Shown here one piece after another: positions 5,899 through 27,612 of a stretch of 35,786 bases of DNA. The notes beneath the pieces were generated by a model. That model was not told the origin of the DNA and ran no database searches. It was given only the letters and a program-made list of their open reading frames with translations. Position 1 is the stretch's first letter; each line of letters starts with the position of its first letter. A program made the position numbers and the translations under genes. The stretch lies in contig JAILDQ010000212.1 of the NCBI GenBank assembly GCA_024689365.1, positions 1 through 35,786 of the forward strand. Reading direction: 5' to 3'. This DNA is from Treponema sp. GTDB lineage: Bacteria > Spirochaetota > Spirochaetia > Treponematales > Treponemataceae.

Positions 5899-6339
5899 AT
5901 GATGTATAATCAGGCTTACAACGCTTACAAAAAGGCTAGTGTCAAGACCGCAAGCCAAGCGGAACTCGTTGTTCTTCTTTATGAGGGAGCCGTGAAGAAA
6001 CTCACTTCCGCGTCTTCAAAATTTACGCCAGACGGAAAACTGCCAGTCGCAAATATAGAGGCTTTCAGCGCGGACGTTTTGCGCGCTCAGGAAATCATCA
6101 CGGAACTTCAGGTTTCCCTCGACATGGATAAAGGCGGAGAAATCGCAAGAAATTTGATGTCCTTGTATCTTTTCTTCAACGACCAGCTTAGAAGCGCGAA
6201 CATTTCAAAGAACAAGGATAAAATCGATTCAGTTTTAAATATGATGAGCCAGTTGACTGACTCATGGCGCCAAGCTGCGGAAACCTCAAACGGCAGCGTT
6301 TCCACTCAAAGCCAGCCGGCGTTGAACATTGAGGGGTGA
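5899..6339 (+). CDS. fliS: Flagellar export chaperone FliS
   Basis: A 146-residue, mostly helical protein. The start MMYNQAYNAYKKASVKTASQAELVVLLYEGAVKKL is the FliS N-terminal pattern (YxxxxxxTAsp..LvlmLYdgA). Residues 80-125 (ARNLMSLYLFFNDQL) match its third and fourth helices, where the family motif is 'LxxLYxYmxxrL'. Family knowledge: FliS binds the C-terminus of newly made flagellin in the cytoplasm and delivers it to the export gate. The Shine-Dalgarno GGGAGG lies about 11 bases before the first ATG; the adjacent second ATG would be better spaced by three bases less of protein. A sigma-28 promoter precedes it, as expected for a late flagellar gene. It is followed after 4 bases by the flgN-like gene. 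Confidence 0.9.
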   Translation: MMYNQAYNAYKKASVKTASQAELVVLLYEGAVKKLTSASSKFTPDGKLPVANIEAFSADVLRAQEIITELQVSLDMDKGGEIARNLMSLYLFFNDQLRSANISKNKDKIDSVLNMMSQLTDSWRQAAETSNGSVSTQSQPALNIEG

Positions 6340-6343
6340 CTTT

Positions 6344-6814
6344 ATGGAAGAGATTACAAAAGAAGAGCTTGAAGAGCGCGTGGCCTTGCTGAAAAAATTC
6401 CGCAGCTTGCTCCAACAGCAGCGCGACAAATTCCGCGAGTACCTCAATGTTTTGGAAAAGCAAGAAACTTCAATCACTACAGAAAACGCCGACGCTCTTT
6501 TGGCCCACACAGAGCTTGAGCAACAGGTTGTTTCAAACATAATGAACTTGCAAAAGGTCATCGTGCCGATGTCCGACTTGTACAAGGCCCGCTCTGGCGA
6601 AGAAAAGGAAGAGTCGATTACGGCCCTTCAAAACGATTTGTCCAGCTTGCAGAATCAAGTTCTCGCGCAAAACAAAAAGAACCGCGACTTGCTCAGAAGC
6701 CACATCGACAGCATAAGGACTCAAATCGCGTCTTTCAGAAATCCCTACAAGAGCCGCCGTTCAGTTTACGCCGAAAAGAATTCCACTGGCTCAATGGTCG
6801 CGGTGGAAGCGTAA
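6344..6814 (+). CDS. FlgN-like flagellar chaperone
   Basis: A 156-residue, entirely helical, Glu/Gln/Leu-rich protein predicted to form long coiled coils. Its pattern (LLKKFRSLLQQQRDKFREYL, then a heptad region, then LLRSHIDSIRTQIASFRNPY) fits the FlgN family, whose members chaperone the hook-filament junction proteins FlgK and FlgL. FlgN is poorly conserved, so the call leans on size, helix pattern and the immediate fliS neighbour. The start at 6344 is preferred over an upstream in-frame ATG at 6329 because GAGGGG at the end of fliS is then a correctly spaced Shine-Dalgarno. It is expected to be co-transcribed from the sigma-28 promoter. The C-terminus ends in a basic and then flexible tail. 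Confidence 0.72.
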   Translation: MEEITKEELEERVALLKKFRSLLQQQRDKFREYLNVLEKQETSITTENADALLAHTELEQQVVSNIMNLQKVIVPMSDLYKARSGEEKEESITALQNDLSSLQNQVLAQNKKNRDLLRSHIDSIRTQIASFRNPYKSRRSVYAEKNSTGSMVAVEA

Positions 6815-14807: not shown

Positions 14808-15621
14808 CGGAAAAAACACGCCTGAAGAAATGATTCTTGGCGCGATTGAAAGAAATTTTTCCATACTTGGATTTTCTTCCCACAGCATGTATCCGCATTC
14901 TTCGGATTGGCACATGGCGGTTTTAAATCACAAAAATTATTTTGAAAGCGTTCGCGAACTTGCGAAAAAATATTCGGACAAAATAAAAATTTACGCGGGC
15001 CTTGAAGCCGATTACATTCCTGAATTTTGCTGCGACTTTAAATGGCAGTACAGGGATTTTTCTCCGGATTATCTTATTGGCTCTGTTCATTATTTGACAA
15101 ACAAAAAAGGTTTCTTTACCGTTGACGACAAGCTTGAAAATGTAAAGGAAGGCTTGGAGCGCCTTTATTCAAATGACGGAAAAAAAGCGGTTTGCGAATA
15201 CTTTGACCGCCAGCGGCAAATGCTTTTGAGCCAAAAGATTTTGATTTTAGGCCACGCTGACTTGATTAGAATCAGAAACGAACATTTGAAATTTTTTGAC
15301 GAAGGCGATTCCTGGTATAAAAAAGAGTTGAAGGCCACCGCAAAGGCGGCTGCAAAGGCTGGCGTGATTGTTGAGATAAACACTGGCGGGCTTGCTCGCA
15401 AAAACATTGACGACGTTTATCCCAGCGCTGAATTTTTGGATTATTTTAGGCAAGAAGGCTGCCCCGTCACTTTTTCTAGCGACGCGCACGCTGTTCAAAA
15501 TCTTGACTTTGCTTTTGACCGCGCGGAACTTGCGGCGGTCAGAGCTGGCTATACCGAAGCCGCCTATTTTGAAGACGGCCAAATTAAGTTCCGCCCCTTG
15601 GACGGAAGACTAAAATACTAG
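14770..15621 (+). CDS. PHP-domain phosphoesterase (histidinol-phosphatase HisK/HisJ-like)
   Basis: A 283-residue protein with the PHP metal-binding motifs in order: YHTHTTFCDG (5-14), GFSSHSMYPH (34-43), GLEADYIP (about 77-84), GSVHYL (about 98), GHADLI (about 160) and SSDAHAV near the C-terminus. It fits the histidinol-phosphatase branch, which makes histidinol in histidine synthesis; a different phosphoester substrate is possible because no other his gene is nearby. The start is TTG at 14770, supported by AAGGAG at 14757-14762 with 7-base spacing. It overlaps the end of the kinase gene by 38 bases, which implies coupled expression with the signalling pair. The stop codon shares CTAG with the stop of the converging zinc-finger gene. 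Confidence 0.85.
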   Translation: MKTNYHTHTTFCDGKNTPEEMILGAIERNFSILGFSSHSMYPHSSDWHMAVLNHKNYFESVRELAKKYSDKIKIYAGLEADYIPEFCCDFKWQYRDFSPDYLIGSVHYLTNKKGFFTVDDKLENVKEGLERLYSNDGKKAVCEYFDRQRQMLLSQKILILGHADLIRIRNEHLKFFDEGDSWYKKELKATAKAAAKAGVIVEINTGGLARKNIDDVYPSAEFLDYFRQEGCPVTFSSDAHAVQNLDFAFDRAELAAVRAGYTEAAYFEDGQIKFRPLDGRLKY

Positions 15622-15971
15622 CGGCGCTTTTCAGCCTGTGACGCGCAGTTGATGCACATAAAGGCGTAGGGAAGCGCTTCCAATCTTGCTTCAGGAATGG
15701 GCTTTCCGCATTTGAGGCAGAGGCCGTATTTTCCTTGCTGAATGCGAAGAAGCGCGTTGTTGATTAGCGTAAGGCGGTTTGCGTCCTGCGCTCCAAGAGA
15801 ATCCAACATGTTGCGGTCAACAGCGTCGCTGGCCACGTCGATTTCATCTCCTGACTCGACTTTGGAAACCAAGTCCTTAAATTCGTTATTCTGAGCGGCA
15901 AGCGCGTCCAAAATCAAGTTTCTTTGTTCAATCAATTTTTCTTTCATTTTTTTAATGAATGACTGTCTCAA
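15618..15971 (-). CDS. DksA/TraR family C4 zinc-finger regulator
   Basis: A 117-residue protein. Residues 1-75 form a coiled-coil hairpin whose tip carries DEIDVA (42-47), matching the DxxDxA motif with which DksA reaches into the RNA polymerase secondary channel. The C-terminal part has the four zinc cysteines in CLKCGK (about 90-95) and CINC (about 109-112). Family knowledge: such proteins change promoter open-complex stability, often together with ppGpp. The start is TTG at 15971, supported by AAGGGG 7 bases upstream; an in-frame ATG at 15947 lacks any Shine-Dalgarno. It is divergent from infA, and the two promoter regions overlap between 15972 and 16061. Confidence 0.88.
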   Translation of the reverse strand: MRQSFIKKMKEKLIEQRNLILDALAAQNNEFKDLVSKVESGDEIDVASDAVDRNMLDSLGAQDANRLTLINNALLRIQQGKYGLCLKCGKPIPEARLEALPYAFMCINCASQAEKRR

Positions 15972-15984
15972 AATTTTCCCCTTG

Positions 15985-16017
15985 TTGACAAAAACGATTA
16001 TTTTAAGATACTATAAT
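15985..16017 (+). promoter_or_regulatory. Promoter region of infA
   Basis: TTGACA (15985-15990) followed by overlapping -10 candidates GATACT (16007-16012, 16-base spacer) and TATAAT (16012-16017, 21-base spacer). A minus-strand TATTAT for the divergent DksA-like gene overlaps the same stretch. Confidence 0.6.
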
Positions 16018-16061
16018 ACCACATCTTGAAAAAAAATCAAGTGTTTTTTTGAGGAGGAATC

Positions 16062-16280
16062 GTGGCAAAAGAAGAAGCGATTGAAGTTGAAGGATTGGTA
16101 AAAGAAGCTTTGCCAAACACAATGTTTCGCGTTGAATTAAAAAACGGACACATCATTATGGCGCATCTTTCGGGAAAAATGAGAAAGCATTACATTAGAA
16201 TCGTTCCCGGCGACAATGTTAAGGTTGCGCTCTCTCCCTACGATTTGGACAAGGGAAGAATCATTTTCAGACAGAGATAG
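16062..16280 (+). CDS. infA: Translation initiation factor IF-1
   Basis: Seventy-two residues, the standard length, forming one OB-fold S1-type domain: [19 protein letters not shown], then [20 protein letters not shown] and [17 protein letters not shown] with the ending KGRIIFR. These are near-invariant IF-1 stretches. IF-1 occupies the A site of the 30S subunit during initiation. The start codon is GTG at 16062, with a strong Shine-Dalgarno GAGGAGG 4 bases upstream. It is a single-gene unit; a weak GCGC-rich inverted repeat follows the stop codon, but I cannot call a terminator with confidence. Confidence 0.97.
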
Positions 16281-16327
16281 TTTGACAATCGCGCAAGAGC
16301 TTTATGCGAAGCGCGCTTTAACTGTTC

Positions 16328-16909
16328 CTATTTTTTCTTTGGACTGAAGAGGGCTTTGAGCGCCCTGCCGGCTCCGCTGACGCCGTTTACAATCGCCGCC
16401 AAGCTTAGTATCGGTCCGATTGGGAAAATGTACAAAGAAAAAGACAAAGACCAAAAGCCTATCAATATTTGAATTATTTTCCAAATCAACTGGCTAAAAG
16501 CGGCTCCTCGAGAGAGGGGCTCTTGGTCTTGACTGTTTGAATAATAATATCTGCGGCTGGAATTGCTGTAATTGGCCCATTCTCTAAAGGGGTCGTAACT
16601 TTCGTTTGAATAGCCTTGCTCTCCAAAAGGATTGTAATATCCCCAAGAGCCGTAATTTTGTTGGTATGAATTTTGACTTGCGCCGGCCGAACCAAATGGG
16701 TCAAAGCCGCCCGCGTCGTATTGCGCCCTTTTTGTGGAATCGCTCAAAACGGAATACGCTTCGCTTATTTGCTTGAATTTTTCTTCAGCGTCTTTGTCGC
16801 CAGGATTTCTGTCCGGGTGGTATTTAAATGCGAGGTTTCTGTAAGCTTTTTTTATTTCGTCTTCGCTAGCGTTTTTGTTCACGCCGAGTCGGGCGTAATA
16901 ATCTTCCAT
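16328..16909 (-). CDS. Membrane-anchored J-domain protein
   Basis: A 193-residue protein. Residues 4-66 are a J domain with the HPD motif ([10 protein letters not shown]), which stimulates DnaK ATPase. Residues 67-130 are low complexity, rich in Tyr, Asn, Ser, Gly and Gln, with two DPF/NPFG motifs resembling a G/F linker. Two hydrophobic segments follow (about 138-165 and 167-180), so the protein is probably anchored with its J domain in the cytoplasm, and it ends in a basic tail. It lacks the zinc and substrate-binding domains of true DnaJ. It is the last gene of the Bat-type operon, 18 bases after Smr, and also has its own TTGCCG-17-TATATT promoter, whose -10 is 6 bases before the ATG. Confidence 0.85.
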
Positions 16910-16915
16910 ATTTAT

Positions 16916-16944
16916 AATATAATAAATTTAAGGGCGAACGGCAA
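16916..16944 (-). promoter_or_regulatory. Internal promoter of the J-domain gene
   Basis: Minus strand TTGCCG (16944-16939), 17 bases, TATATT (16921-16916), then 6 bases to the ATG at 16909. The -35 lies inside the end of the Smr gene. There is no Shine-Dalgarno. Confidence 0.45.
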
Positions 16945-17323
16945 CCCATGTGGCGCCGCTTCCGCCTTGGCTTTTGTCTGCCTTTCCGCTGGCTCCCAAG
17001 CGTTGGTCGTATTCAATGAATTTTTTGACAACGCTTCCTAAGACTCCTTCGCTGTCCGCTGAATGCAAGCCTTTTCCGTGAATGATTAAAATTTTTTGAA
17101 GGCCCCTTCGTTTTGCGTTTGCGACAAAATCGTTGAGGGCATTCCATGCCTCTTCTTGAGTCAAGCCGTGAAGGTCAAGCGTGTCTTGCGGCGCCAAGTT
17201 TTTGACGTAAGATGAGCTTCTCATCTTTTTTTTTACCGCGGCTTTTTCGGCGGCCGCGTCCTTGTCAACCACTTGACCTTTGTTTGAGGATTCCCATTGC
17301 GCGAGAATTTCGCCGAAGTTCAT
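16928..17323 (-). CDS. Smr-domain protein
   Basis: A 131-residue protein. After a charged N-terminus of about 45 residues comes an Smr domain: DTLDLHGLTQEEAWNAL (about 48-64), IIHGKGLHS (about 79-87), and the ending GATWVAVRP. The LDxHG and HGxG motifs are those associated with nuclease or nucleic-acid-binding activity in Smr proteins (the MutS2 C-terminal family); recent work links the fold to ribosome rescue endonucleases. The specific substrate here is unknown. Its ATG overlaps the stop codon of the upstream batD gene (ATGA), so it is translationally coupled to the Bat operon. Confidence 0.85.
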   Translation of the reverse strand: MNFGEILAQWESSNKGQVVDKDAAAEKAAVKKKMRSSSYVKNLAPQDTLDLHGLTQEEAWNALNDFVANAKRRGLQKILIIHGKGLHSADSEGVLGSVVKKFIEYDQRLGASGKADKSQGGSGATWVAVRP

Positions 17324-18738
17324 TTTATTGCCGCCAAATTTTCTTTTCTAATCCAGCCGCCGTTTTCGTTGTAAACGATGTAATACCAATCTTTGACTTC
17401 TTCTTTTATGAGGACGCGGCTTCCTCCGCTTACCGCGGTTTTTGTCATCGCGGACTCTTCAGGAACGGGGCTTATTTCGCCGCCGACAATGATTCCGTGT
17501 TTTTTTATAAGAACGTTCGCGTCTATTGATGTGACAAAAATAAAGGCGATTGCGGCGATTCCCGCCATCGCGGCCTCAAAGCGTTTTTTCAACAAAAATA
17601 AAATTATGCCAAGAGCCGCCAATATTCCAGTCGTTCCAAGCAAAATAAAAAAGATGGGAAGCAAGGGCTCGTTTTCAGATTTCTGCAAGCCTATCTTTTC
17701 TTCAGCCGCGATTCTTTGCGCTCTGATTTTCCTTGCGTTGATAAATGACCTGCGCTCTTGGGAGCGAAGCCTTGCGATTTCGGCGCAGTCAAAGGGCGAT
17801 ATTTCTTTGTCTTGCTGTTCTTTGTTGCCGGACGTTTCTTCCGCCCAAGCGTAGGCGTAAACCGAGTCTTGCTCGCTTGTTTTCATGTCTTGCTTGTCTG
17901 CCTTGCTTTTGTTTTGCGGCGTGATGGTGACCAGGCATTCTGGAGTTGTCAAGTAAATCGAACGGCCTGAATACGCTGTGGCCATCATTCTAATTTCAGG
18001 CAGAGATGTTTGTCCGCTGGCAAACGGCGTCCATTCAAAATCCGCCACGGGAACTTTTTTTGTTGAAAAGTCCGAAGCCCGCTCTGAAGACTTTTCGATG
18101 TTGTAGCGCTTGGTTTCGATGAAGATTGAGTCTTTTGGAATGCTCCATGCGAATTGCTGCGCTTGAATCGCGTATTGCAAGTAAAGCGTGAAGCGTGCCG
18201 TTTTATTGCTTTCCAATGAAATCGTCGGAATCTTTTTTGTCTCTTCGCCGATGACTTCTCCGCTGTCAAAAACCAAAGTCATGCGGGGCAAAATCGTGCG
18301 CGGGTTTTCGTAAACCTCGACTGTTTTAAAATTGATTGAATAGCGGCGGCCTTTTACATAAATGATGAGAGGCGGCAAGGTGAGCGAGCCGGTTTTTCTA
18401 AAGGTGAACCAAAGGTCGATTTCCGCGCCCATGCTTCCGTCTTGCGAAAAATAATCTCCTCTTTTTGAAGAGTTGAAAACAATTCCTTCCGGAAAATTTG
18501 GAAGCTCGGTCTGAACGTCGCTTGGCAAAATGTTTGGAATCTTAAGAATGAACTGCGCTTCCTTGTTTGTGAAAAAAATGTCGTCCTTTGGAAGAATCAT
18601 CAATTTTTCAGCGTCATCTCTTGTAAAGGAATTTTTTTGCTCCGCTTGAGAAAATGAACTGTTGGCGCAAATCAGCCAAAGCGCCGCTAGTAGTCCAAGG
18701 ACGAATCGCTTTTTTGTTCTTTTTGATTGTTTTTCCAT
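17320..18738 (-). CDS. BatD-like protein with C-terminal SH3-type domain
   Basis: A 472-residue protein. It has a signal peptide (residues 1-32: basic start, LGLLAALWLICANSSFSQA), then beta-rich periplasmic domains at about 40-270 typical of BatD, with the pattern 'FxxTGSLTLPPLxIYxxG'. A linker with RSQERRSF-type charged helices leads to two membrane helices at about 360-385 and 392-412. The protein ends in an SH3b-like domain (about 425-472, RVLIKEEVKDWYYIVYNENG and GWIRKENLAAI). Bat proteins are membrane complexes linked to aerotolerance and stress in spirochaetes and Bacteroides; the biochemical role is unknown. The ATG lies 52 bases inside batB, an unusually long overlap, and only a distant GGGAG precedes it. 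No later start would retain the signal peptide. Confidence 0.8.
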   Translation of the reverse strand: MEKQSKRTKKRFVLGLLAALWLICANSSFSQAEQKNSFTRDDAEKLMILPKDDIFFTNKEAQFILKIPNILPSDVQTELPNFPEGIVFNSSKRGDYFSQDGSMGAEIDLWFTFRKTGSLTLPPLIIYVKGRRYSINFKTVEVYENPRTILPRMTLVFDSGEVIGEETKKIPTISLESNKTARFTLYLQYAIQAQQFAWSIPKDSIFIETKRYNIEKSSERASDFSTKKVPVADFEWTPFASGQTSLPEIRMMATAYSGRSIYLTTPECLVTITPQNKSKADKQDMKTSEQDSVYAYAWAEETSGNKEQQDKEISPFDCAEIARLRSQERRSFINARKIRAQRIAAEEKIGLQKSENEPLLPIFFILLGTTGILAALGIILFLLKKRFEAAMAGIAAIAFIFVTSIDANVLIKKHGIIVGGEISPVPEESAMTKTAVSGGSRVLIKEEVKDWYYIVYNENGGWIRKENLAAIK

Positions 18739-20315
18739 TGTTGTTGGTCTTTCTCCCGAATTCTATTAAAGACAGATTTTTGCAAGTCTGATTCTTCTTG
18801 CGACATTTCGTCCGCGCCAATCATTTGCCTTTCGCTTTCATGGGCCCGTTGAACTTGCTGGCTTCTTGAAAGCTCTAGGTTGACCTTTGCCTTTACGTTT
18901 GTTGGGTCTATCAAAAGCGCGTTCTTAAAAAGCTCCACGGCCTTTTTGTAGTCGCCTTCGCGCTGGGCGATTATTCCTGAATTGTAAAAAGAAGCGAAGC
19001 GGATTTTATCTGGCGCGTTTCCCGACAAAGCGTTGATTTTTTCCATCGCCGCCTTGTTTTCGTTTTGCATCAAGTAAGTCGCTGAAAGTCCGTAAAGGGC
19101 GTATTGCTTTATCAATTGATTGTCGTTGGCTTCTGCGTCCGTAAGGCATTGTGAAAAGCCTGCCACCGCTTCGGTGTATTTTTTTTGGTTCCAGTTCCAA
19201 ACCGCGCCCAAGATTTTTTTTGACTCGTTGAATTCGTTTGAGCATGAAACAAAGTTCATCGCAATCAGAGAAATCGCGAGGGCTTCTTTAGCGCCCTTTA
19301 AAGAAAATTCGCTTGCAAAAAAGCTTAGGGCAAAAAGAATGATTCCGAGCGTTATGAACAGCTTGTGGTGGTCGACTGTTTGGACTTCATACGCCATTGT
19401 CGTGGAATCTCCGTCTCCTGAAAAGGCGCTTGTCGTTGAAAGAATTTTTCGGGCGGAACCAATTTCAGTCGCGTCGACGAATTTCACCGAAGCGCTTTTT
19501 ATGAATCTAAAGCCTTGTCCGCCCAAATTCTTTTTGTTCGCCTCGTTAACGGCTTCCTTGATTTTTTGCGAGCGCAAGGCGGTCTTTACAGGAGTCTTTC
19601 CGTCGCCGGAAATTATTTCAATTTCCCGCTCTTCGCCAAAGCCGATAATGACTACGTTCGCGCCTCTTCTCAAGGCTGAGCGCAAGGCGTTCTGCAAGGA
19701 GTTGTCGGTTTCTTCGCCGTCGGTGAAAAGCCAAATTACCGGCGCCTTTGAAATTGTTTGCGGAAAAGATTTTAGAGCCTCGTTGATTCCTTCGCCCAAG
19801 CCGCTTCCTGCGGAAGTCATCATTTTGGGCGAAAGGTTTCGCAAGAGCGCCCGTATGCTTTCGTTGTCTTCTGTCAAGGGAACCGCAATCGCCGCTCCGC
19901 CTTTTGCCAAAACGGCGCTGGATGGGATGCCTTCCGTTTTGTCGAGCAAGTTTGACGCGAATGACGCGGCGGCTTCCAGGCGCGTCAAATTGTTTGGACA
20001 GTCCCTTGCCGTCATGCTGTAAGAAATGTCAAAAACGTATGCAATCGCGTTTCCGTTTTTTTGCGTTGGCGTTGAAACTGTTTCCCAAGAAAAGCCCGCA
20101 AGCGCAAAAATCATCATGCACCAGGCGGACACTCTTAAAACTATTCTGGTTATGACGCGCTTTTTAATGTTTATGAATTCCTGCGACCTTCTTCTTTTGC
20201 TGCTTTTGTAAAGCGCCGTAAAAGTTTTTTTGTAAATGAAGGCGCAATAAATCAAGGCTGGAATGATGAATGGAATTCCGTATAAAGCCCAAGGGCGTTC
20301 AATGCTAAAATTCAT
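18687..20315 (-). CDS. BatB-like von Willebrand A protein fused to TPRs (BatB-BatC)
   Basis: A 542-residue protein. Two N-terminal membrane helices (about 12-30 and 57-77) are followed by a VWA domain at 88-275 with the metal-site motif DISYS (96-100) and the TDGEE loop. Further membrane segments at about 320-340 and 346-362 precede a lipobox-like FVSCS. From about 380 to 510 there are TPR-type helices (YALYGLSATYLMQNENKAAM, FYNSGIIAQREGDYKKAVEL), and the end is hydrophilic and Gln/Lys-rich. In other bacteria the TPR protein BatC is separate, so this is a fusion. It overlaps batA by 4 bases and batD by 52. Confidence 0.85.
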   Translation of the reverse strand: MNFSIERPWALYGIPFIIPALIYCAFIYKKTFTALYKSSKRRRSQEFINIKKRVITRIVLRVSAWCMMIFALAGFSWETVSTPTQKNGNAIAYVFDISYSMTARDCPNNLTRLEAAASFASNLLDKTEGIPSSAVLAKGGAAIAVPLTEDNESIRALLRNLSPKMMTSAGSGLGEGINEALKSFPQTISKAPVIWLFTDGEETDNSLQNALRSALRRGANVVIIGFGEEREIEIISGDGKTPVKTALRSQKIKEAVNEANKKNLGGQGFRFIKSASVKFVDATEIGSARKILSTTSAFSGDGDSTTMAYEVQTVDHHKLFITLGIILFALSFFASEFSLKGAKEALAISLIAMNFVSCSNEFNESKKILGAVWNWNQKKYTEAVAGFSQCLTDAEANDNQLIKQYALYGLSATYLMQNENKAAMEKINALSGNAPDKIRFASFYNSGIIAQREGDYKKAVELFKNALLIDPTNVKAKVNLELSRSQQVQRAHESERQMIGADEMSQEESDLQKSVFNRIREKDQQQWKNNQKEQKSDSSLDY

Positions 20316-21316
20316 ACAAACTCCTTAAGCAAAAATCTTCTTATTAACCAAGCCAATGTAAAGGCAATTACAGCGGCCAAAAGAAATTCGTCGTAATAAA
20401 AGGTGTTGACGTTTCTAAGATAATAGTTTTGGGCGACGGTTTGCCTTTTTGTTATTGCGGATAGGGCGACGGAAAAAGCCTGAATGTTTTCCACTCCGTA
20501 GTAGCGGCCGCCAGAACCAAGCGCTAGTTTTTCCAAGGGAGCGCTGTCGAACGTGGAATCCAAGTAGCCCGTGTATTCTTTTCCTGTGTATGGATCTTTG
20601 TAGTCAAGAGGAACTGAACCTCGGGTTCCTATTCCAACCGCGTATATGATGATTTTATTTTCAATTGCAAGCCGGGCCGCGGTTTCTGGATGAATCTCTC
20701 CGGCATTGTTCTCGCCGTCTGTGATTAAAATTATGCACTTGCTTGGAGCCTTTGAATTTGAAAGGTGGAAGATTGCTGAACTCAATCCTGTTCCAATCGC
20801 GGTTCCTTCTCCCAACTCTCCAAGCTTGAGGGACATCAAGCGGCTTTTGAAAAATTCCAAGTCCGATGTCGGCGGCACAAGAAGAGCGGCTTCGTTTCCC
20901 ATCGCCACAAGGCCGTATTCCGCGCCTGTGTTGTTTTGAACCAAAGTTTGGGCCGCTTGCCTAGCCGCGTCAATTCTAAGCATTCCTCCGATGTCTCGGG
21001 CGGCCATTGAAGGGCTTGTGTCCACAACAAAAACGATGTCGGTTCCCCTGGTTGTGTAGACCCTTTCTTGCGTGTGCGCGACGGGGTCGGCAAATGCGAT
21101 TACGATGAATAAAAACGCCGTAAAGACCAAAATCGCCGAAAATGCCGACGTGAAATTCAAGAGCTTGTCGTTCCAAGAAAAAACGAAGCCGTCCCAGTCG
21201 GCGAAAGTAATCGGAAAGCTTATGCGCTGCAACAAGCCGATTTTTCTAAACACAAAAAAAACGGGAATCGCCAATAAAAGGAAAAAGGCGGCTGGATTCA
21301 TAAAGCTAAAGGACAT
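20312..21316 (-). CDS. BatA-like von Willebrand A membrane protein
   Basis: A 334-residue protein with the standard BatA layout: a hydrophobic N-terminus (about 8-24), a second membrane helix at about 57-77, a VWA domain at 92-295 with the intact metal-ion site DTSPS (99-103) and ITDGENNAG, and a C-terminal membrane helix (about 311-327). VWA domains of this type are periplasmic or cytoplasmic protein-binding modules and are typically handled by MoxR AAA+ ATPases, encoded three genes upstream. The ATG overlaps the upstream gene by 11 bases. An alternative in-frame ATG five codons later (MNPAAFF) is possible. Confidence 0.88.
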   Translation of the reverse strand: MSFSFMNPAAFFLLLAIPVFFVFRKIGLLQRISFPITFADWDGFVFSWNDKLLNFTSAFSAILVFTAFLFIVIAFADPVAHTQERVYTTRGTDIVFVVDTSPSMAARDIGGMLRIDAARQAAQTLVQNNTGAEYGLVAMGNEAALLVPPTSDLEFFKSRLMSLKLGELGEGTAIGTGLSSAIFHLSNSKAPSKCIILITDGENNAGEIHPETAARLAIENKIIIYAVGIGTRGSVPLDYKDPYTGKEYTGYLDSTFDSAPLEKLALGSGGRYYGVENIQAFSVALSAITKRQTVAQNYYLRNVNTFYYDEFLLAAVIAFTLAWLIRRFLLKEFV

Positions 21317-22382
21317 TCAATTCCTCCTCGGACTCTCCGTCGCTTTCAAAAACTGCGATTGCCTTTAAAACCATGTCGCTCAACGACTTTCGTTCCGCCG
21401 CCGCGAGCTTGGCTTGGTGTTCGGCTGGAGGATACAATTGGGATTCAATCGAATCGTGCGCGTATCTTATGTAGTCTGTTCTGATGAACATTGAGGTCAA
21501 ATCTTCCACGCTGTTGTCGATTACCGGCGGAATTTCGCCAAGACAAATTTTCATGAAGGCTTCCCTGATTCCTCTGGCGGATGCGGAAGCGAAGGGGTAG
21601 TTGAATCTAAAGGCCAAGTAAGTTCTTGTGATGTTTTGCATGGCCGCGCAAAATTCTATGTCGTTGAGCTTTTTGTTTTTTAGAAGCTTTTTTATTTTCT
21701 TTACTGCGATTGCTGAATTGCGCCTGTAGGCGCGCGAAATCTTCATATGGTTGAACCAGCGCCTGATGTCGCCAAATTTTATCAAGGCCCTTAAAAGCAA
21801 GGCAAAGAAAATTATGGCGCCCAAAACAATCGCGAAAATAACGTAAGTGGTTCCTGGAATTATGAAGGGCGGCGACGGCGGCTGCATTTCGCGCAAGTTC
21901 GTCTTTTCTACAATTGATTTTATTTCTATCGGGTCGAACAATATCGAATAAGAAATGTTTTTGTTTTTGTCCTTTTCGTTGAGGTTTAAAACCGAGAACA
22001 AGTCGAAGGGCGGAAACTCAATTGTTCCGGAGCGCCAAGGAATGAAATGAACGCTTATGACGTATTCCATATCGTTGCGGGTAAAATACGCCTTTTTAAT
22101 CGTTATGGAGTCGTAGAGTTTTCTAAAGGGAAATTTTGCGGCGTTGATTTCCTCTTCCATGACCAATTCGGCGTTTGGAAAAAAGTCAACGGCGCTTCTG
22201 AATGAATAGCGCAGTTCCGCCTCGTCGCCTACATAAACTTCCAGCGGCAAGAGAGTCTGCGACAATTCCGAAGCGTTCGCCGAAACCGTGTCAGGCATGT
22301 TTTGGGCAAAGGCAGCGGCAAGGCTCGCAAGCGCAAAAGCGAAAAGACTTTTTTTCAGGCTTTTTTTCAGGCTTTTTTTCAT
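21306..22382 (-). CDS. BatD-like/DUF4381-like membrane protein of the Bat operon
   Basis: A 358-residue protein. The N-terminus is a signal peptide with three repeats of KKSL before the hydrophobic core. A periplasmic beta-rich domain follows (about 38-165: LPLEVYVGDEAELRYSF ... FIPWRSGTIEFPPFDLF), similar in pattern to one repeat of BatD. A membrane helix at about 180-205 leads to a cytoplasmic helical part (210-350). I cannot name the family firmly; position and architecture resemble the DUF4381 proteins found in MoxR-VWA operons. The start at 22382 overlaps the DUF58 stop (ATGA) and has GAGGG upstream. An ORF extending to 22520 exists but is antisense-free shadow of DUF58 coding sequence in another frame and is rejected. 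Confidence 0.72.
   Translation of the reverse strand: MKKSLKKSLKKSLFAFALASLAAAFAQNMPDTVSANASELSQTLLPLEVYVGDEAELRYSFRSAVDFFPNAELVMEEEINAAKFPFRKLYDSITIKKAYFTRNDMEYVISVHFIPWRSGTIEFPPFDLFSVLNLNEKDKNKNISYSILFDPIEIKSIVEKTNLREMQPPSPPFIIPGTTYVIFAIVLGAIIFFALLLRALIKFGDIRRWFNHMKISRAYRRNSAIAVKKIKKLLKNKKLNDIEFCAAMQNITRTYLAFRFNYPFASASARGIREAFMKICLGEIPPVIDNSVEDLTSMFIRTDYIRYAHDSIESQLYPPAEHQAKLAAAERKSLSDMVLKAIAVFESDGESEEELNVL
22348..22382 (-). repeat. Three 12-base tandem repeats at the start of a signal peptide
   Basis: Units starting at 22348, 22360 and 22372 share CTTTTTTTCAGG on the plus strand, the last one diverging at its end. They encode KKSL three times in frame. Copy-number change would keep the reading frame. 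Confidence 0.8.
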
Positions 22383-23269
22383 GCGATTTCCCTCTGAGAA
22401 AAGAAGGTTAAAAGCGCGCTCAAAGAGTCTTCGCTGGTTGAGATTGAAAGCGGAATTCCTCCGCGGCGCAAAACGCTGTCGGTCCATCGTTTGCTTCTCA
22501 TCGCGGCGTCTTCCCGCCATTCGCTTCTAAATGTTTTTGACATTGTAGGGAAAAGGCGGCGTATTCCTCTTTCGGGGTCTCTTACCATAACGGAACCGAT
22601 TTCCGGAAGGGAAGAGTCTATGCTGTCTGTGATTCTGACCGCTACAACGTCGTGACGCGCGGCAAGGTGGGCAAAGGAATCTTCCCAGCCGCCAGCCCTA
22701 AAGTCGGACAATACAAAAACCAACGAGCGTTTCTTTAGCAATTTTCCGGCTCCGCTAAGTGAAGCCGCAAGCGCCGTTCCTTTTGAGCGATCGGGCATTT
22801 CGTCAAGGCGCGATAGCAAGAGCAAAGTCTGGTTGGCCGAGCTTTTGGGCTTGATTGCAAATTCTATTTGTCCGGAAAAAAGAACCGCGCCGACTGGATT
22901 GGAATTTCGTTCGGCGCTAAAGGTCAATAAGGCCGCGATTTCCGTGGCGCTTTCCAAGCGGGTTTTGCTTTTTGAGCCTTCTTGCATCGAAACAGAGCGG
23001 TCCACGATTAAAAAGATTTGCAGCTCGCGCTCTTCTTCAAAAATCTTTACAAAGGGCTTCGCGCTGCGGGCGGTGACATTCCAGTCAATCGTTCTTACGT
23101 CGTCGCCGCGCAAGTATTCCCGGACGCCGGCAAATTCAATGCCTTGTCCGTGATACAAAGAGCGGAAGGCTCCGTTTTGCATCGCAGAGGCTAGAGAAGT
23201 TGTTGTGATTCTAAGCGCCGCGGCCCTTTTGATTAAAGACTCGCGGTCTGTAAGCAATTTTTCCGCCAT
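22379..23269 (-). CDS. DUF58 domain protein of the Bat/MoxR operon
   Basis: A 296-residue soluble protein. The DUF58 signature is complete: GQGIEFAGVREYLRGDDVR (about 42-60) followed directly by TIDWNVTARS. The region from about 85 to 240 has a degenerate VWA fold (LIVDRSVSMQEG with DxSxS kept, then LVFVLSDFRAGG). Family knowledge: DUF58 proteins sit between MoxR and VWA genes and are thought to be adaptors or clients of the MoxR ATPase. There is no membrane segment. It starts 15 bases after moxR and overlaps the next gene by 4 bases. Confidence 0.9.
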   Translation of the reverse strand: MAEKLLTDRESLIKRAAALRITTTSLASAMQNGAFRSLYHGQGIEFAGVREYLRGDDVRTIDWNVTARSAKPFVKIFEEERELQIFLIVDRSVSMQEGSKSKTRLESATEIAALLTFSAERNSNPVGAVLFSGQIEFAIKPKSSANQTLLLLSRLDEMPDRSKGTALAASLSGAGKLLKKRSLVFVLSDFRAGGWEDSFAHLAARHDVVAVRITDSIDSSLPEIGSVMVRDPERGIRRLFPTMSKTFRSEWREDAAMRSKRWTDSVLRRGGIPLSISTSEDSLSALLTFFSQREIA

Positions 23270-23284
23270 TTTCAGTCCAAGTTA

Positions 23285-24277
23285 TTACGGAAGCGGAGTC
23301 AATTCCAAAATCTTTTCTATAATGTCGTCCGCGGTAACGTTTGACGCGGCCGCTTCGTATGACAAAACCAAACGGTGCCTTAAGACGTTTTTAGCCACGG
23401 CCTTGATGTCGTCTGGCAAAACAAAGGAACGGCCGCTAAAGAGGGCCTGGACTTTGGCGCATTGAAGCAAGGCGATTCCCGCTCGCGGCGAGGCTCCGTA
23501 GCTTATGTATTTTGAAATGTCGTTTTTGCCTATGGCCATTGAATTTGCGGGGCGGGTGACGTTCACGATCGAAACGATGTATTCAATCACTTTTTCGTCG
23601 CAAACGATTCGTTCCAAAAGGCTTCTGCATTTTTTAAGCGTTTGTTGGCTGAAAACCTTGTTGACAGGAACCAAGGCCGCGTTGCCGCAAGTTTTTACGA
23701 TTTCAATCTCTTCGGAAACCGTCGGGTAGGGAACCACGATTTTCATCAAAAAGCGGTCCAATTCGGCTTCCGGCAAATTGTAAGTTCCTTCTTGCTCAAT
23801 CGGGTTTTGGGTCGCCAATACAAAGAAGGGGTCGGGCAGCTTGTAAGTCGTGTCGCCAATCGTAACTTGGCGCTCCGCCATGGATTCCAGCAAGGCGCTC
23901 TGGACTTTTGCCGGCGCTCGGTTTATTTCGTCCGCGAAAACGACGTTTGTAAAAACCGGTCCCTTGTGAACGCTAAAACGCCCGGAATTTTGTTCGTAAA
24001 TCAAAGTTCCGGTCAAGTCGGCGGGAAGCAAGTCTGGCGTAAACTGAATGCGCTTGAAGTCCAAGCCTGAAAGCTCGGCGAACGTTCTTACCGCCAAAGT
24101 TTTCGCAAGGCCAGGAACGCCTTCGAGCAATACGTGGCCGCCTGCGACCATGGCCATAAGAATTCCGTCAATGACTTGGTTTTGGCCAACCAAACGCTTG
24201 GCGGCCTCTTCGCGGCAATTTTCAGCAATTTCGCGGCATTCTTTTAGATCCGCTTCGTTGATTTCCATTTTTTCCAT
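23285..24277 (-). CDS. MoxR family AAA+ ATPase
   Basis: A 330-residue ATPase. Walker A is GVPGLAKT (53-60), Walker B VVFADE (112-117) with the INRAPAKVQSALLE signature after it, and sensor 1 lies in LATQNPIEQEGTYNLPEAELDRF (154-176), a hallmark of MoxR. The C-terminal lid contains GASPRAG and LPDDIKAVA. Family knowledge: MoxR ATPases act as chaperones that mature or remodel VWA-domain complexes, here presumably BatA and BatB. It is the first gene of an eight-gene operon reaching down to 16328. A GGAG stretch 9 bases upstream supports the ATG at 24277, with a second ATG three codons in. Its promoter was not resolved. Confidence 0.93.
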   Translation of the reverse strand: MEKMEINEADLKECREIAENCREEAAKRLVGQNQVIDGILMAMVAGGHVLLEGVPGLAKTLAVRTFAELSGLDFKRIQFTPDLLPADLTGTLIYEQNSGRFSVHKGPVFTNVVFADEINRAPAKVQSALLESMAERQVTIGDTTYKLPDPFFVLATQNPIEQEGTYNLPEAELDRFLMKIVVPYPTVSEEIEIVKTCGNAALVPVNKVFSQQTLKKCRSLLERIVCDEKVIEYIVSIVNVTRPANSMAIGKNDISKYISYGASPRAGIALLQCAKVQALFSGRSFVLPDDIKAVAKNVLRHRLVLSYEAAASNVTADDIIEKILELTPLP

Positions 24278-24308
24278 AAGGGCAACTCCAGTTAATCGGC
24301 ATATTGAA

Positions 24309-24324
24309 ATGAATATTTATTCAT
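24309..24324. promoter_or_regulatory. Palindrome between divergent moxR and aminotransferase genes
   Basis: ATGAATA-TT-TATTCAT is a perfect inverted repeat with 7-base arms, about 30 bases upstream of moxR and upstream of the aminotransferase -35. Operator function is inference. Confidence 0.35.
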
Positions 24325-24343
24325 ACTTTTTGCATACTTATTC

Positions 24344-24373
24344 TTGACATTTATGTTGCGTTTAGCGTATTAT
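24344..24373 (+). promoter_or_regulatory. Sigma-70-type promoter of the aminotransferase
   Basis: Consensus TTGACA (24344-24349), 18 bases, TATTAT (24368-24373) preceded by GCG, then 8 bases to the ATG at 24382. An overlapping TATATT begins at 24371. Confidence 0.68.
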
Positions 24374-24381
24374 ATTATATC

Positions 24382-25674
24382 ATGTTGAACCCTTTAGCAC
24401 AAGAATTAAATGAAATTTTAAAGAACACAAGCGCGGCTTCCTTGTTCTCGGATTTTGGCGAGCGGATTTATTTTCCGAACGGAATCATTGCCCAAAGCGG
24501 CGAGGCCAAGAAATTTGGCTACACCGCGAACGGAACTATCGGAACGACGATAATTGACGGAAGACCCGCCATGTTGGACGCGATCCACAGGCACGTTCCG
24601 GAATTTTCCAGCTCCTCTTTGGTCGGCTACGCTCCGACTGCGGGAAATCCTGAATTGCGCGAAGCCTGGCGCCAGGACATGATTAGAAAAAATCCTTCGC
24701 TTGAAGACAAAGACTTCTCCCAGCCGGTTTTGGTTCCCGGCTTGACCGCGGGAATTTCTTACGTGGCCGACTTGTTCTTGGATTCAACAAAGGCTCTTTT
24801 GGCGGCCGACCCAAGTTGGGACAATTACGCCTTGATTGCGGAAGCCCGACGCAACGCTCCTTTCCATCAATTCAAGATGTTCAACGATGGAAAATTCGAC
24901 TTTGATTCTTTTGAAAAGGCTCTTAGAAAGGAATGCGAATCCGGCAGCGCCCGCCTTTTGCTCAACTTTCCTCAAAATCCTTCAGGATATTCTCCGACCC
25001 GCGAAGAGGCAAAAAAAATCGTCGCCTTGCTAAAGGAACTTGCCGAAAGCGGAAAGAAGATTCTTGCCATAAGCGACGACGCGTATTTTGGCTTGAACTA
25101 CGAGGACTCGATTGAGCCTCAGTCCCTTTTTGCCTACACTTGCGACTTGCATCCGAACATTTTGGCCGTGAAAATTGACGGTCCCACAAAAGAGGATTTT
25201 GTTTGGGGCTTTAGAGCCGGCTTTGTGACTTTTGGCTGCAAGGGCTGGACAAAAGAACAGTATCAAGCTTTGGTCACAAAATTGATGGGAACGATCCGCT
25301 CTTCAGTAAGCTGCTCGTCAACTCCGCCCCAGTCATTCTTGCTAAAAGCGATGACGGAAGAGTCCGATGAATTTGAAGAGCAAAAAATCGAATACAGAAA
25401 CATTCTTGAAAAAAGATACAAGAAAGTCCGCGCTTTTGTCGACAGCCATTCGTCAAAAGTCGTGGAGCCCCTTCCTTTTAATTCAGGCTATTTCATGAGC
25501 TTTGACGTAAAGGGAAAGAACGCCGAGGAATTGCGCCAAAAGCTTTTGCGCGAATACGGAATTGGAACCGTTTCGATTGACAGCCACACTTTGCGCGTTG
25601 CCTTTAGCTCTCTTGAGGCGGAACAAATTGACGAAGTTTATGCGACGATTTACAAAGCTGCGGATGAAATCTAA
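24382..25674 (+). CDS. Class I/II aminotransferase (PLP-dependent)
   Basis: A 430-residue fold-type I PLP enzyme. GYAPTAGNPELREAWR (about 74-89) is the substrate-side glycine region, LLNFPQNPSGYSPTREE (about 193-209) contains the NPxG motif, ISDDAYFGL (about 230-238) holds the Asp that pairs with the PLP pyridine nitrogen, and VKIDGPTKEDFVWGFRAGF (about 255-273) includes the probable Schiff-base Lys in PTKE and the phosphate-binding Arg. The C-terminus ends with a small domain and SHTLRVAFSS, containing the carboxylate-binding Arg. The donor and acceptor cannot be read. It has no Shine-Dalgarno and a near-leaderless promoter. It overlaps the downstream lipoprotein gene by 11 bases. Confidence 0.88.
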   Translation: MLNPLAQELNEILKNTSAASLFSDFGERIYFPNGIIAQSGEAKKFGYTANGTIGTTIIDGRPAMLDAIHRHVPEFSSSSLVGYAPTAGNPELREAWRQDMIRKNPSLEDKDFSQPVLVPGLTAGISYVADLFLDSTKALLAADPSWDNYALIAEARRNAPFHQFKMFNDGKFDFDSFEKALRKECESGSARLLLNFPQNPSGYSPTREEAKKIVALLKELAESGKKILAISDDAYFGLNYEDSIEPQSLFAYTCDLHPNILAVKIDGPTKEDFVWGFRAGFVTFGCKGWTKEQYQALVTKLMGTIRSSVSCSSTPPQSFLLKAMTEESDEFEEQKIEYRNILEKRYKKVRAFVDSHSSKVVEPLPFNSGYFMSFDVKGKNAEELRQKLLREYGIGTVSIDSHTLRVAFSSLEAEQIDEVYATIYKAADEI

Positions 25675-26914
25675 TTTGCTCTTTGGCCTTGCCATAGGCC
25701 TTTTGCTTGTTTCCTGCGCTCAAAAAGAAAGCCGCCTTTTGTTGGAGACGAACAACGCGGAATTCGCTTCTTGCGCCGAGCTTTTTAACGCAAGCCAAGA
25801 CGAGGTTAAGGTCATCGTTCACTACAAGGACGAGCTGATTAAAAATTTAGGGGCGGACAAGGATTCTCCGATGCCGGACCTTTTGGCCGGCAGCTACCTT
25901 CAGTCAGGAATCGAAAAAAAATATTTCGCGAACATTTCCTCGTTGATAAAAGAAAAAGGCCCGCTTGACAAAGACGCCTTTTATCCAAGCCTTTTGCAAA
26001 GCGGCCGCCTTAATGAAAAGCAGTTTTTGCTTCCGGTAAGCTTTAATTTGCCGGCGCTTGTTTTTTATTCCGCAAATTCCGAAAGCTTGCAAAACGCCGC
26101 GATGCTTTCCTTTGACGACATAAAGGACTTTTCAAAAAAATTCAACTCGCAAAACAAAGAGGGCGTTTACACTTCTATGGGCTTTGGCCCCCTTTGGTCG
26201 ATGGACTTTTTGTATTTGGTCTTTAAGGACAACGGAGTTTTTTTCAATCCAAACGCCGATTCAATCGTTTACACTGAAAACGCCTTTAACAAAAGCGTTG
26301 AATATGTTCGCGACTGGATAGAAGAAATTAACGGCGGCGCAAAAAACGAACAAGACTTTGCCTTTAAGTATTTGTACATGCCCTTTTACAATCAGGCGCA
26401 GAGCGGCCGCTGCCTTTTTTCATACGCTTCGAGCAGGCAAATATTGTCGCTTTCAAAAGACCAAATTCAAAGTTTGGATTTCCGCTGGATTTGCAACAAC
26501 AATAAAATTCAAATTGAAGACGACTATGTAAGCATTGGAATTTTGGCCAAGAGCAAAAACAAAGCGGCCGCAAAAAAATTCATCGTTTGGCTTATGGGCG
26601 AATATTCACAAAAGCAAATATTGGACAGAAAGGCACAAATGAATCTTTCTACCGATGCCTTTGGAATTGCCGGCGGCTTTTCTTCTCTGCAAAACGTTAC
26701 AGAGCGCCTCTTTCCGCTTTACTACCGCTTTTTGCTTTCCAACACGCCGGTGGCCGACCGCTTGAGCGCGCCGCAAAATTTTCCGAGCGATTGGGCAAAG
26801 ATAAAGGAAATTGCGGTTGAGCCTTTTATTTTGGATTCTTGTTCCAGAGACGATGAAAAAATTAAAAGCTTAAACGAACGTTACGCGGATTTCTTGGCTT
26901 CCCAGGAAAAGTAA
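25664..26914 (+). CDS. Extracellular solute-binding lipoprotein (family 1-like)
   Basis: A 416-residue protein with a lipoprotein signal peptide: MKSNLLFGLAIGLLLVSC, lipid Cys at position 18. The mature part has the two-lobe pattern of family 1 solute-binding proteins, including LLPVSFNLPALVFYSAN (about 115-131), SFDDIKDFSKKF, SMGFGPLWSMDFLYLVF and GRCLFSYAS, plus a late helix AAKKFIVWLMGE. Such proteins usually bind sugars or oligosaccharides for an ABC importer. No permease or ATPase is nearby, so it is an orphan. The start at 25664 was chosen for the signal peptide; longer in-frame starts lie inside the aminotransferase gene. It is probably coupled to that gene. Confidence 0.78.
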   Translation: MKSNLLFGLAIGLLLVSCAQKESRLLLETNNAEFASCAELFNASQDEVKVIVHYKDELIKNLGADKDSPMPDLLAGSYLQSGIEKKYFANISSLIKEKGPLDKDAFYPSLLQSGRLNEKQFLLPVSFNLPALVFYSANSESLQNAAMLSFDDIKDFSKKFNSQNKEGVYTSMGFGPLWSMDFLYLVFKDNGVFFNPNADSIVYTENAFNKSVEYVRDWIEEINGGAKNEQDFAFKYLYMPFYNQAQSGRCLFSYASSRQILSLSKDQIQSLDFRWICNNNKIQIEDDYVSIGILAKSKNKAAAKKFIVWLMGEYSQKQILDRKAQMNLSTDAFGIAGGFSSLQNVTERLFPLYYRFLLSNTPVADRLSAPQNFPSDWAKIKEIAVEPFILDSCSRDDEKIKSLNERYADFLASQEK

Positions 26915-26916
26915 AA

Positions 26917-27303
26917 TCAGGCTTGAATTGAAAGGAGCGCTCCGGCTTCGGGCTTTGCTCCGTTCAGCATGAATTGGGCTTGGCTTGCTTGAACCGCTTG
27001 GGCGATTTGCTTTTGATAGTTTTGAATCAAAGCGTCGGCTTGCGCTTCGGTGATTTTTACGTTTTTTGACGGCGTGTTTTGAACGCCCTTTATTCTGCTT
27101 AAATTTTCAATCAAAGAATTTAAAATCTGAATCTTGGAAATGGAAACGCCGCTTTGTCCTTTTGGCGCCGCTATTCCGGAAATGTGATTGAACTGAGCGT
27201 AAATTACAGCGGACGGGCTTACAGGCACAAAGAGTTTTCCGCTTGCTCCGCTTGACGAGACGTGGTAAGTGTATGGGTTCAAATTTGTAATATTTGAAAT
27301 CAT
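26917..27303 (-). CDS. Conserved-looking protein of unknown function, sigma-28 controlled
   Basis: A 128-residue soluble protein that I do not recognise with certainty. It has no signal peptide or membrane segment. The N-terminus is Ser/Gly/Tyr-rich (NLNPYTYHVSSSGASGK), followed by VPVSPSAVIYAQFNHISG and helical stretches (SKIQILNSLIENLSRI, ITEAQADALIQNYQKQ, AQAVQASQAQFML). The ATG follows CGGAG by 9 bases. The key clue is upstream: a near-consensus sigma-28 promoter at 27324-27350, which places it in the flagellar or chemotaxis regulon. It converges on the solute-binding gene with a gap of 2 bases between stop codons. A flagellar or motility-related role is inference from the promoter. Confidence 0.72.
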   Translation of the reverse strand: MISNITNLNPYTYHVSSSGASGKLFVPVSPSAVIYAQFNHISGIAAPKGQSGVSISKIQILNSLIENLSRIKGVQNTPSKNVKITEAQADALIQNYQKQIAQAVQASQAQFMLNGAKPEAGALLSIQA

Positions 27304-27323
27304 CTTTTTTCGCTCCGTTTAAA

Positions 27324-27350
27324 TTATCGGAAAACGAAAAAAAAACTTTA
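27324..27350 (-). promoter_or_regulatory. Sigma-28 promoter of the 128-residue unknown protein
   Basis: Minus strand TAAA (27350-27347), 15 bases, TCCGATAA (27331-27324). This matches TAAA-N15-GCCGATAA at all but one position. The spacer begins with G and nine T, nearly the same as in the fliS promoter. Confidence 0.8.
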
Positions 27351-27367
27351 TAGGCGTGACTTTAAAT

Positions 27368-27396
27368 AAAAAAAAGGCTCGAGCTTGTCGAGCCTT
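27368..27396 (-). terminator. Rho-independent terminator of the small RNA unit
   Basis: Minus strand AAGGCTCGA, loop CAAGC, TCGAGCCTT, then six T. The stem is 9 perfect base pairs (27396-27388 with 27382-27374). It lies between the RNA unit and the sigma-28 promoter of the next gene. Confidence 0.85.
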
Positions 27397-27578
27397 ATAT
27401 GTTCTTCTATTACGACGCTGAAATATTCAGCGGAAGAACGGTATTAGTTTCTGCATAACCGCAGATGGTATGTTGTCTACTGTTTTATAGCCCCAGTCAG
27501 GCTTGCTCTCTTTGTCGGAAATTGCATAACGCCTCCTGTCGCGCGGGCGGTTAAAGTCCTCATCTCTTTCCTGCCCAC
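27368..27578 (-). ncRNA. Candidate structured small RNA of unknown class
   Basis: A transcription unit of about 210 bases with its own promoter (TTGCAT-16-TATCAT, 27612-27585) and terminator. The 3' half folds well: GTTCTTC (27439-27433) pairs with GAAGAAC (27407-27401), and inside it CGCTGAA (27432-27426) pairs with TTCAGCG (27422-27416), leaving an 8-base bulge. The 5' half has three GGA motifs (around 27570, 27560 and 27537). It does not show tmRNA, RNase P, SRP or 6S hallmarks that I can recognise. Two small ORFs compete: 28 codons at 27563-27477 with a fair Shine-Dalgarno, and a 61-codon frame at 27612-27427 whose possible starts lie upstream of the predicted transcript start. Confidence 0.5.
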
Positions 27579-27584
27579 GATTTA

Positions 27585-27612
27585 ATGATAGCATAGATTC
27601 TGAATAATGCAA
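27585..27612 (-). promoter_or_regulatory. Promoter of the small RNA unit
   Basis: Minus strand TTGCAT (27612-27607), 16 bases, TATCAT (27590-27585). The predicted first base is near 27578. Confidence 0.5.

Follow-up and report, generated by a model that had tools for sequence, protein, structure and literature searches.

Spirochaete motility depends centrally on periplasmic flagella, whose parts list is incomplete. In other bacteria, the flagellar apparatus exports FlgM. Among spirochaetes, a promoter of the type described below has been mapped for flaB2 of Treponema denticola and assigned to sigma-28 (PMC9481697), and Borrelia has been reported to lack this sigma factor (PMC11607428). Here we present evidence that places an undescribed protein family in the flagellar regulon of treponemes and their relatives; the kind of gene, a late sigma-28-dependent flagellar one, is already known, and T. 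denticola is a tractable relative for direct tests.

The window, that is, the whole stretch of 35,786 nucleotides analysed, contains the gene and the associated elements listed below.

26917-27303, minus strand: gene for a 128-residue protein without assigned function, stop codon included (open reading frame; orthologues in relatives)
27313-27316, minus strand: Shine-Dalgarno GGAG, 9 nt 5' of the ATG (from the sequence)
27324-27350, minus strand: predicted sigma-28 promoter, with -35 TAAA at 27350-27347, a 15-nt spacer and -10 TCCGATAA at 27331-27324 (from the sequence; conserved before orthologues)
27374-27396, minus strand: intrinsic terminator directly upstream of the promoter (from the sequence)

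The minus-strand bases 27350-27324 read TAAA-GTTTTTTTTTCGTTT-TCCGATAA, and the 20 nt from the -10 box to the ATG at 27303 include the GGAG. The preliminary description had located this motif 21-47 bases before the ATG, one mismatch from the sigma-28 consensus and with a Shine-Dalgarno in place; it named no strand, and on the minus strand the distances are exact. The single mismatch to TAAA-N15-GCCGATAA falls on the first base of the -10 box, a G that is replaced here by T, the commonest base (66%) at this position in the aligned promoters of the clade. The terminator (27396-27374) is predicted to be strong and to shield the gene from transcription entering from upstream; between the terminator and the ATG, we found no sigma-70-like site. 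Downstream, the neighbouring gene is convergent, with 2 bases between the two stop codons. Given the terminator on one side and the convergent gene on the other, the 128-residue gene appears to be a one-gene unit that relies on the sigma-28 promoter.

Just upstream, at 27366-27585 on the minus strand, lies a conserved element of about 200 nt, which appears to be non-coding and has a terminator of its own. A small apparent open reading frame at this site (27427-27612) is interrupted by in-frame stops in close relatives, and no Rfam match reaches the gathering score. By DNA similarity, the element was detected in 30 of the 98 relatives, of which almost all belong to the same genus, and a genome can carry as many as four copies. 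The element carries several GGA motifs, and a CsrA-binding small RNA would be one guess as to its identity.

The preliminary description had proposed looking for the motif before orthologues as a check on the promoter, and had named a lack of conservation there as a refutation; the claim survives this test. We scanned the 130 bp preceding 169 distinct orthologues from the class Spirochaetia with the textbook pattern (TAAA, a spacer of 14-16, then the bases CCGATAA; 11 fixed bases), after dropping near-identical upstream regions from the counts. With two or fewer mismatches allowed, the motif was present before 148 of the 169 orthologues (88%), compared with 84 of 1455 neighbouring genes at the same loci (6%) and 7% of shuffles; with at most one mismatch, the counts were 84 of 169 and 12 of 1455 (0.8%), respectively, and 0.6% for shuffled sequences. 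The odds ratio of orthologues to neighbouring genes exceeds 100, the p-values for enrichment being descriptive only because the orthologue sequences share ancestry. Among these promoters, a spacer of 15 predominates, and the -10 box mostly ends 10-50 bp from the ATG. Conservation in the alignment is concentrated in both boxes, with weaker preferences in the flanks and at the start of the spacer, most of which is unconserved. The motif is also kept in distant families of the class, several members of which have no mismatch at the 11 scored bases, and a minority have no visible motif; outgroup orthologues that do carry it are only about 20-35% identical. In the positive control, the same scan found the motif at 33 of 33 flgM loci, including flgM of this genome, and the two flagellin genes read in this genome have the motif with one mismatch.

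The pattern alone proves little, since genome-wide it yields 16 matches, several of them inside genes, against 8 for a reversed control; the match before the 128-residue gene gains its significance from conservation before the orthologues. Sigma-28 control of the gene is thus highly probable judging from sequence, and the claim of sigma-28 dependence in the preliminary description gains support both from this conservation and from a distribution, described below, that follows flagellin plus FliA. Regarding other matches in this genome, a perfect sigma-28 promoter, TAAA-N16-GCCGATAA, lies 68 bp upstream of the ATG of flgM (L185/L304, G000:C247). Further sigma-28-like matches stand shortly before open reading frames of 488, 177 and 257 residues (L174, G000:C20; L182, G000:C184; and L187, G000:C272, respectively), which may be additional members of the regulon.

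The genome of the window encodes FliA above the family cut-off (G000:C111:16280-16957), along with FlgM as a separate gene. Orthologues of the 128-residue gene were detected in named Treponema genomes and in 80 of 98 relatives: 80 of the 90 flagellin-positive relatives have the gene, and none of the 8 flagellin-negative ones, which also lack FliF and FlgM above the cut-off. We extended the search to a phylum sample of 295 genomes, which are at least 90% complete with the exception of the genome that contains the window. The family is present in 98 of these, all flagellin-positive and all of one class, where they account for 98 of the 113 sampled Spirochaetia outside Borreliaceae that possess flagellin. 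The 15 flagellated class members without the gene all encode FliA, so flagella can be built without the gene, which makes it an accessory factor. The family was not found in any of the 30 flagellin-negative genomes, although these fall in few lineages and may represent only a few independent losses. It was likewise missing from all 36 genomes of Borreliaceae, which are flagellated and have no sigma-28; this family is presumably f7 of the sample, three genomes of which were tested and gave no FliA above the cut-off. Because Borreliaceae and some flagellated relatives do without it, the gene cannot encode a core part of periplasmic flagella. In one genome (G218; family f10, genus g44), no flagellin was found and the 128-residue gene is absent, whereas FliA is kept at full score; hence, the distribution of the gene tracks that of the flagellum in addition to that of FliA. 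In G218, FliA may serve another job. A profile widened with the outgroup sequences detected no convincing homologue outside the class; its two weak, partial matches (E 3e-4 and 2e-3), which lie within longer open reading frames of flagellin-negative genomes, were judged spurious.

The orthologue in G138, a single contig of 1,139,633 bases that we take to be T. pallidum, is preceded by TAAG-N16-GCCGATAG and followed by two same-strand genes that look like outer-membrane barrels. TP0698 has been described as an 8-stranded barrel (PMC8407342). From the gene order near this barrel and its mass of 14.2 kDa, the G138 orthologue is probably TP0700, the locus tag being deduced on these grounds. TP0700, which is uncharacterised and has a mass of 14 kDa, belongs to the 50 most abundant proteins of T. 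pallidum, with an NSAF of 8.0 compared to 7.5 for TP0663 (FlaA) and 7.0 for the flagellin TP0792, and no function is reported for it in that study (PMC5015957).

None of the neighbours of the 128-residue gene is flagellar, and the downstream partners of its orthologues vary between lineages; synteny accordingly was of no help as a guide to function. In two distant loci (L288 and L298), the gene stands beside DksA/TraR, Smr and Bat genes, and in the window these genes are likewise no more than 12 kb away from it (15618-27303). This neighbourhood of DksA/TraR, Smr-domain and Bat-operon genes thus seems old, being found here and in distant class members, and has no evident flagellar link. Elsewhere in the window, at 5899-6814 on the plus strand, fliS and an overlapping FlgN-like gene (Pfam E 2.4e-5, below the curated cut-off) make up a small, apparent pair of flagellar chaperone genes.

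The protein was said in the preliminary description to have no recognisable domain, and our searches agree: there was no match near the cut-off in Pfam, none in NCBIfam or in a sequence search of the PDB, and none in a fold search with the first AlphaFold model. A PHROG match (E 5.5e-4) covers the helical region only and is not credible. The conserved core comprises a VPV strand, an IYxxFxHVxG segment and GVxIxKLxILxxLI, which leads into the first helix; a second helix follows around DALI, and the C-terminus mostly ends in Ala. Two AlphaFold models, both of low confidence, give the same topology of a strand, a short helix, a strand and two long helices. The protein shows no signal-peptide-like or membrane segment.

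Cys is absent from 162 and Trp from 165 of the 169 orthologues, compared to 31% and 27%, respectively, of 128-residue windows drawn from conserved neighbouring proteins. Relative to neighbouring proteins, the two residues are depleted approximately 30- to 60-fold. The orthologues are also enriched in Ser and Gln and have no hydrophobic segment. With few Cys and Trp and an abundance of Ser, Gln, Asn and Ala, they resemble known flagellar type III export substrates in composition. This suggests export by the flagellar type III apparatus; the low Cys and Trp content is consistent with such export and suggestive of it, not proof, given that other soluble proteins can share it.

Taken together, the co-occurrence with flagellin and FliA and the composition resembling that of an exported flagellar substrate bear out the suggestion of the preliminary description that this is a candidate motility factor, and a flagellar or motility role is very probable. 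We propose that the 128-residue gene belongs to the late (class III) genes of the flagellar regulon controlled by FliA and FlgM, and that FliA RNA polymerase transcribes its one-gene unit after completion of the hook-basal body and departure of FlgM from the cell. The product is most likely a small, soluble protein without Cys or Trp, in which a disordered N-terminus precedes two long C-terminal helices. It would then be exported into the periplasm by the flagellar type III apparatus and serve the periplasmic filament there, either as an accessory component or as an assembly factor. The parts of this proposal differ in strength: the promoter and its conservation, the co-occurrence with flagellin and FliA and the composition are observed in the sequences, and FliA dependence itself, export, location and exact role are inferred from them. 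As a whole, taken broadly to mean regulon membership together with export and an accessory role in the flagellum, the proposal has a slightly better than even chance of being correct; for export by the flagellar apparatus the chances appear evenly balanced, and the specific role in the filament or its assembly is a tentative assignment.

The alternatives concern the promoter, the process and the location of the protein. A promoter match arising by chance in AT-rich sequence would fit the genome-wide counts of 16 against 8 for the reversed control and the occurrence of several matches within genes, but is extremely improbable considering the class-wide conservation before orthologues, at an odds ratio above 100 relative to neighbouring genes, and the persistence of the motif before outgroup orthologues of only about 20-35% identity. 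A genuine regulon member could instead serve a co-regulated process outside the flagellum, for example signalling in chemotaxis or remodelling of the envelope in cells that swim. The non-flagellar neighbours and the two barrel-like genes that follow on the same strand in G138 are compatible with this, yet the downstream partners change from lineage to lineage and the gene is missing in every sampled flagellin-less genome, including G218 with its FliA, which makes such a role improbable.

Somewhat unlikely, although less so, is a flagellar helper that stays in the cytosol, where it would either chaperone a substrate exported late or add a second regulator to the FliA/FlgM loop. Chaperones and regulators are both found among the class III genes of other bacteria, and a small, helical, soluble protein with a sigma-28 promoter would suit either function. 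However, a sequence nearly devoid of Cys and Trp is more in keeping with export, and the protein matches none of the FliS, FlgN, FliT and FlgM families, nor the FlgM profile; moreover, the window already holds fliS and the FlgN-like gene, and FlgM is encoded elsewhere in the genome. The identification of the protein as FliS, FlgN or FliT itself was rejected on the same grounds.

Returning to the exported accessory protein, the family occurs in most class members with flagella and sigma-28 and is absent from Borrelia, a point on which the two best-studied flagellar systems of spirochaetes differ. That it is an abundant filament accessory or assembly protein, exported by the type III apparatus in T. 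pallidum and most treponemes and absent from Borrelia, is possible though doubtful; if true, this difference would be a real one.

Among the described systems, FlgV (BB0268), a basal-body protein of spirochaetes and other bacteria, has its gene within the flagellar superoperon and occurs in Borrelia, whereas the 128-residue gene is an orphan unit absent from Borreliaceae. The FlaB flagellins (PF00669), exemplified by the sigma-28-controlled flaB2 of T. denticola, resemble the family in being late flagellar gene products behind a sigma-28-type promoter, poor in Cys and rich in Ser, Gln, Asn and Ala. However, the family is half as long and shows no homology to them, with no family or profile match that would make it a flagellin, and flagellins, which build the core of the filament, occur in every flagellated species, unlike the 128-residue gene. 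Identity with FlgM (PF04316), the anti-sigma-28 factor, was rejected as well, FlgM being a separate gene with neither sequence nor profile similarity to the family; nonetheless, FlgM is, like the family, small and nearly free of Cys and Trp, and in these genomes is preceded by the same sigma-28 promoter.
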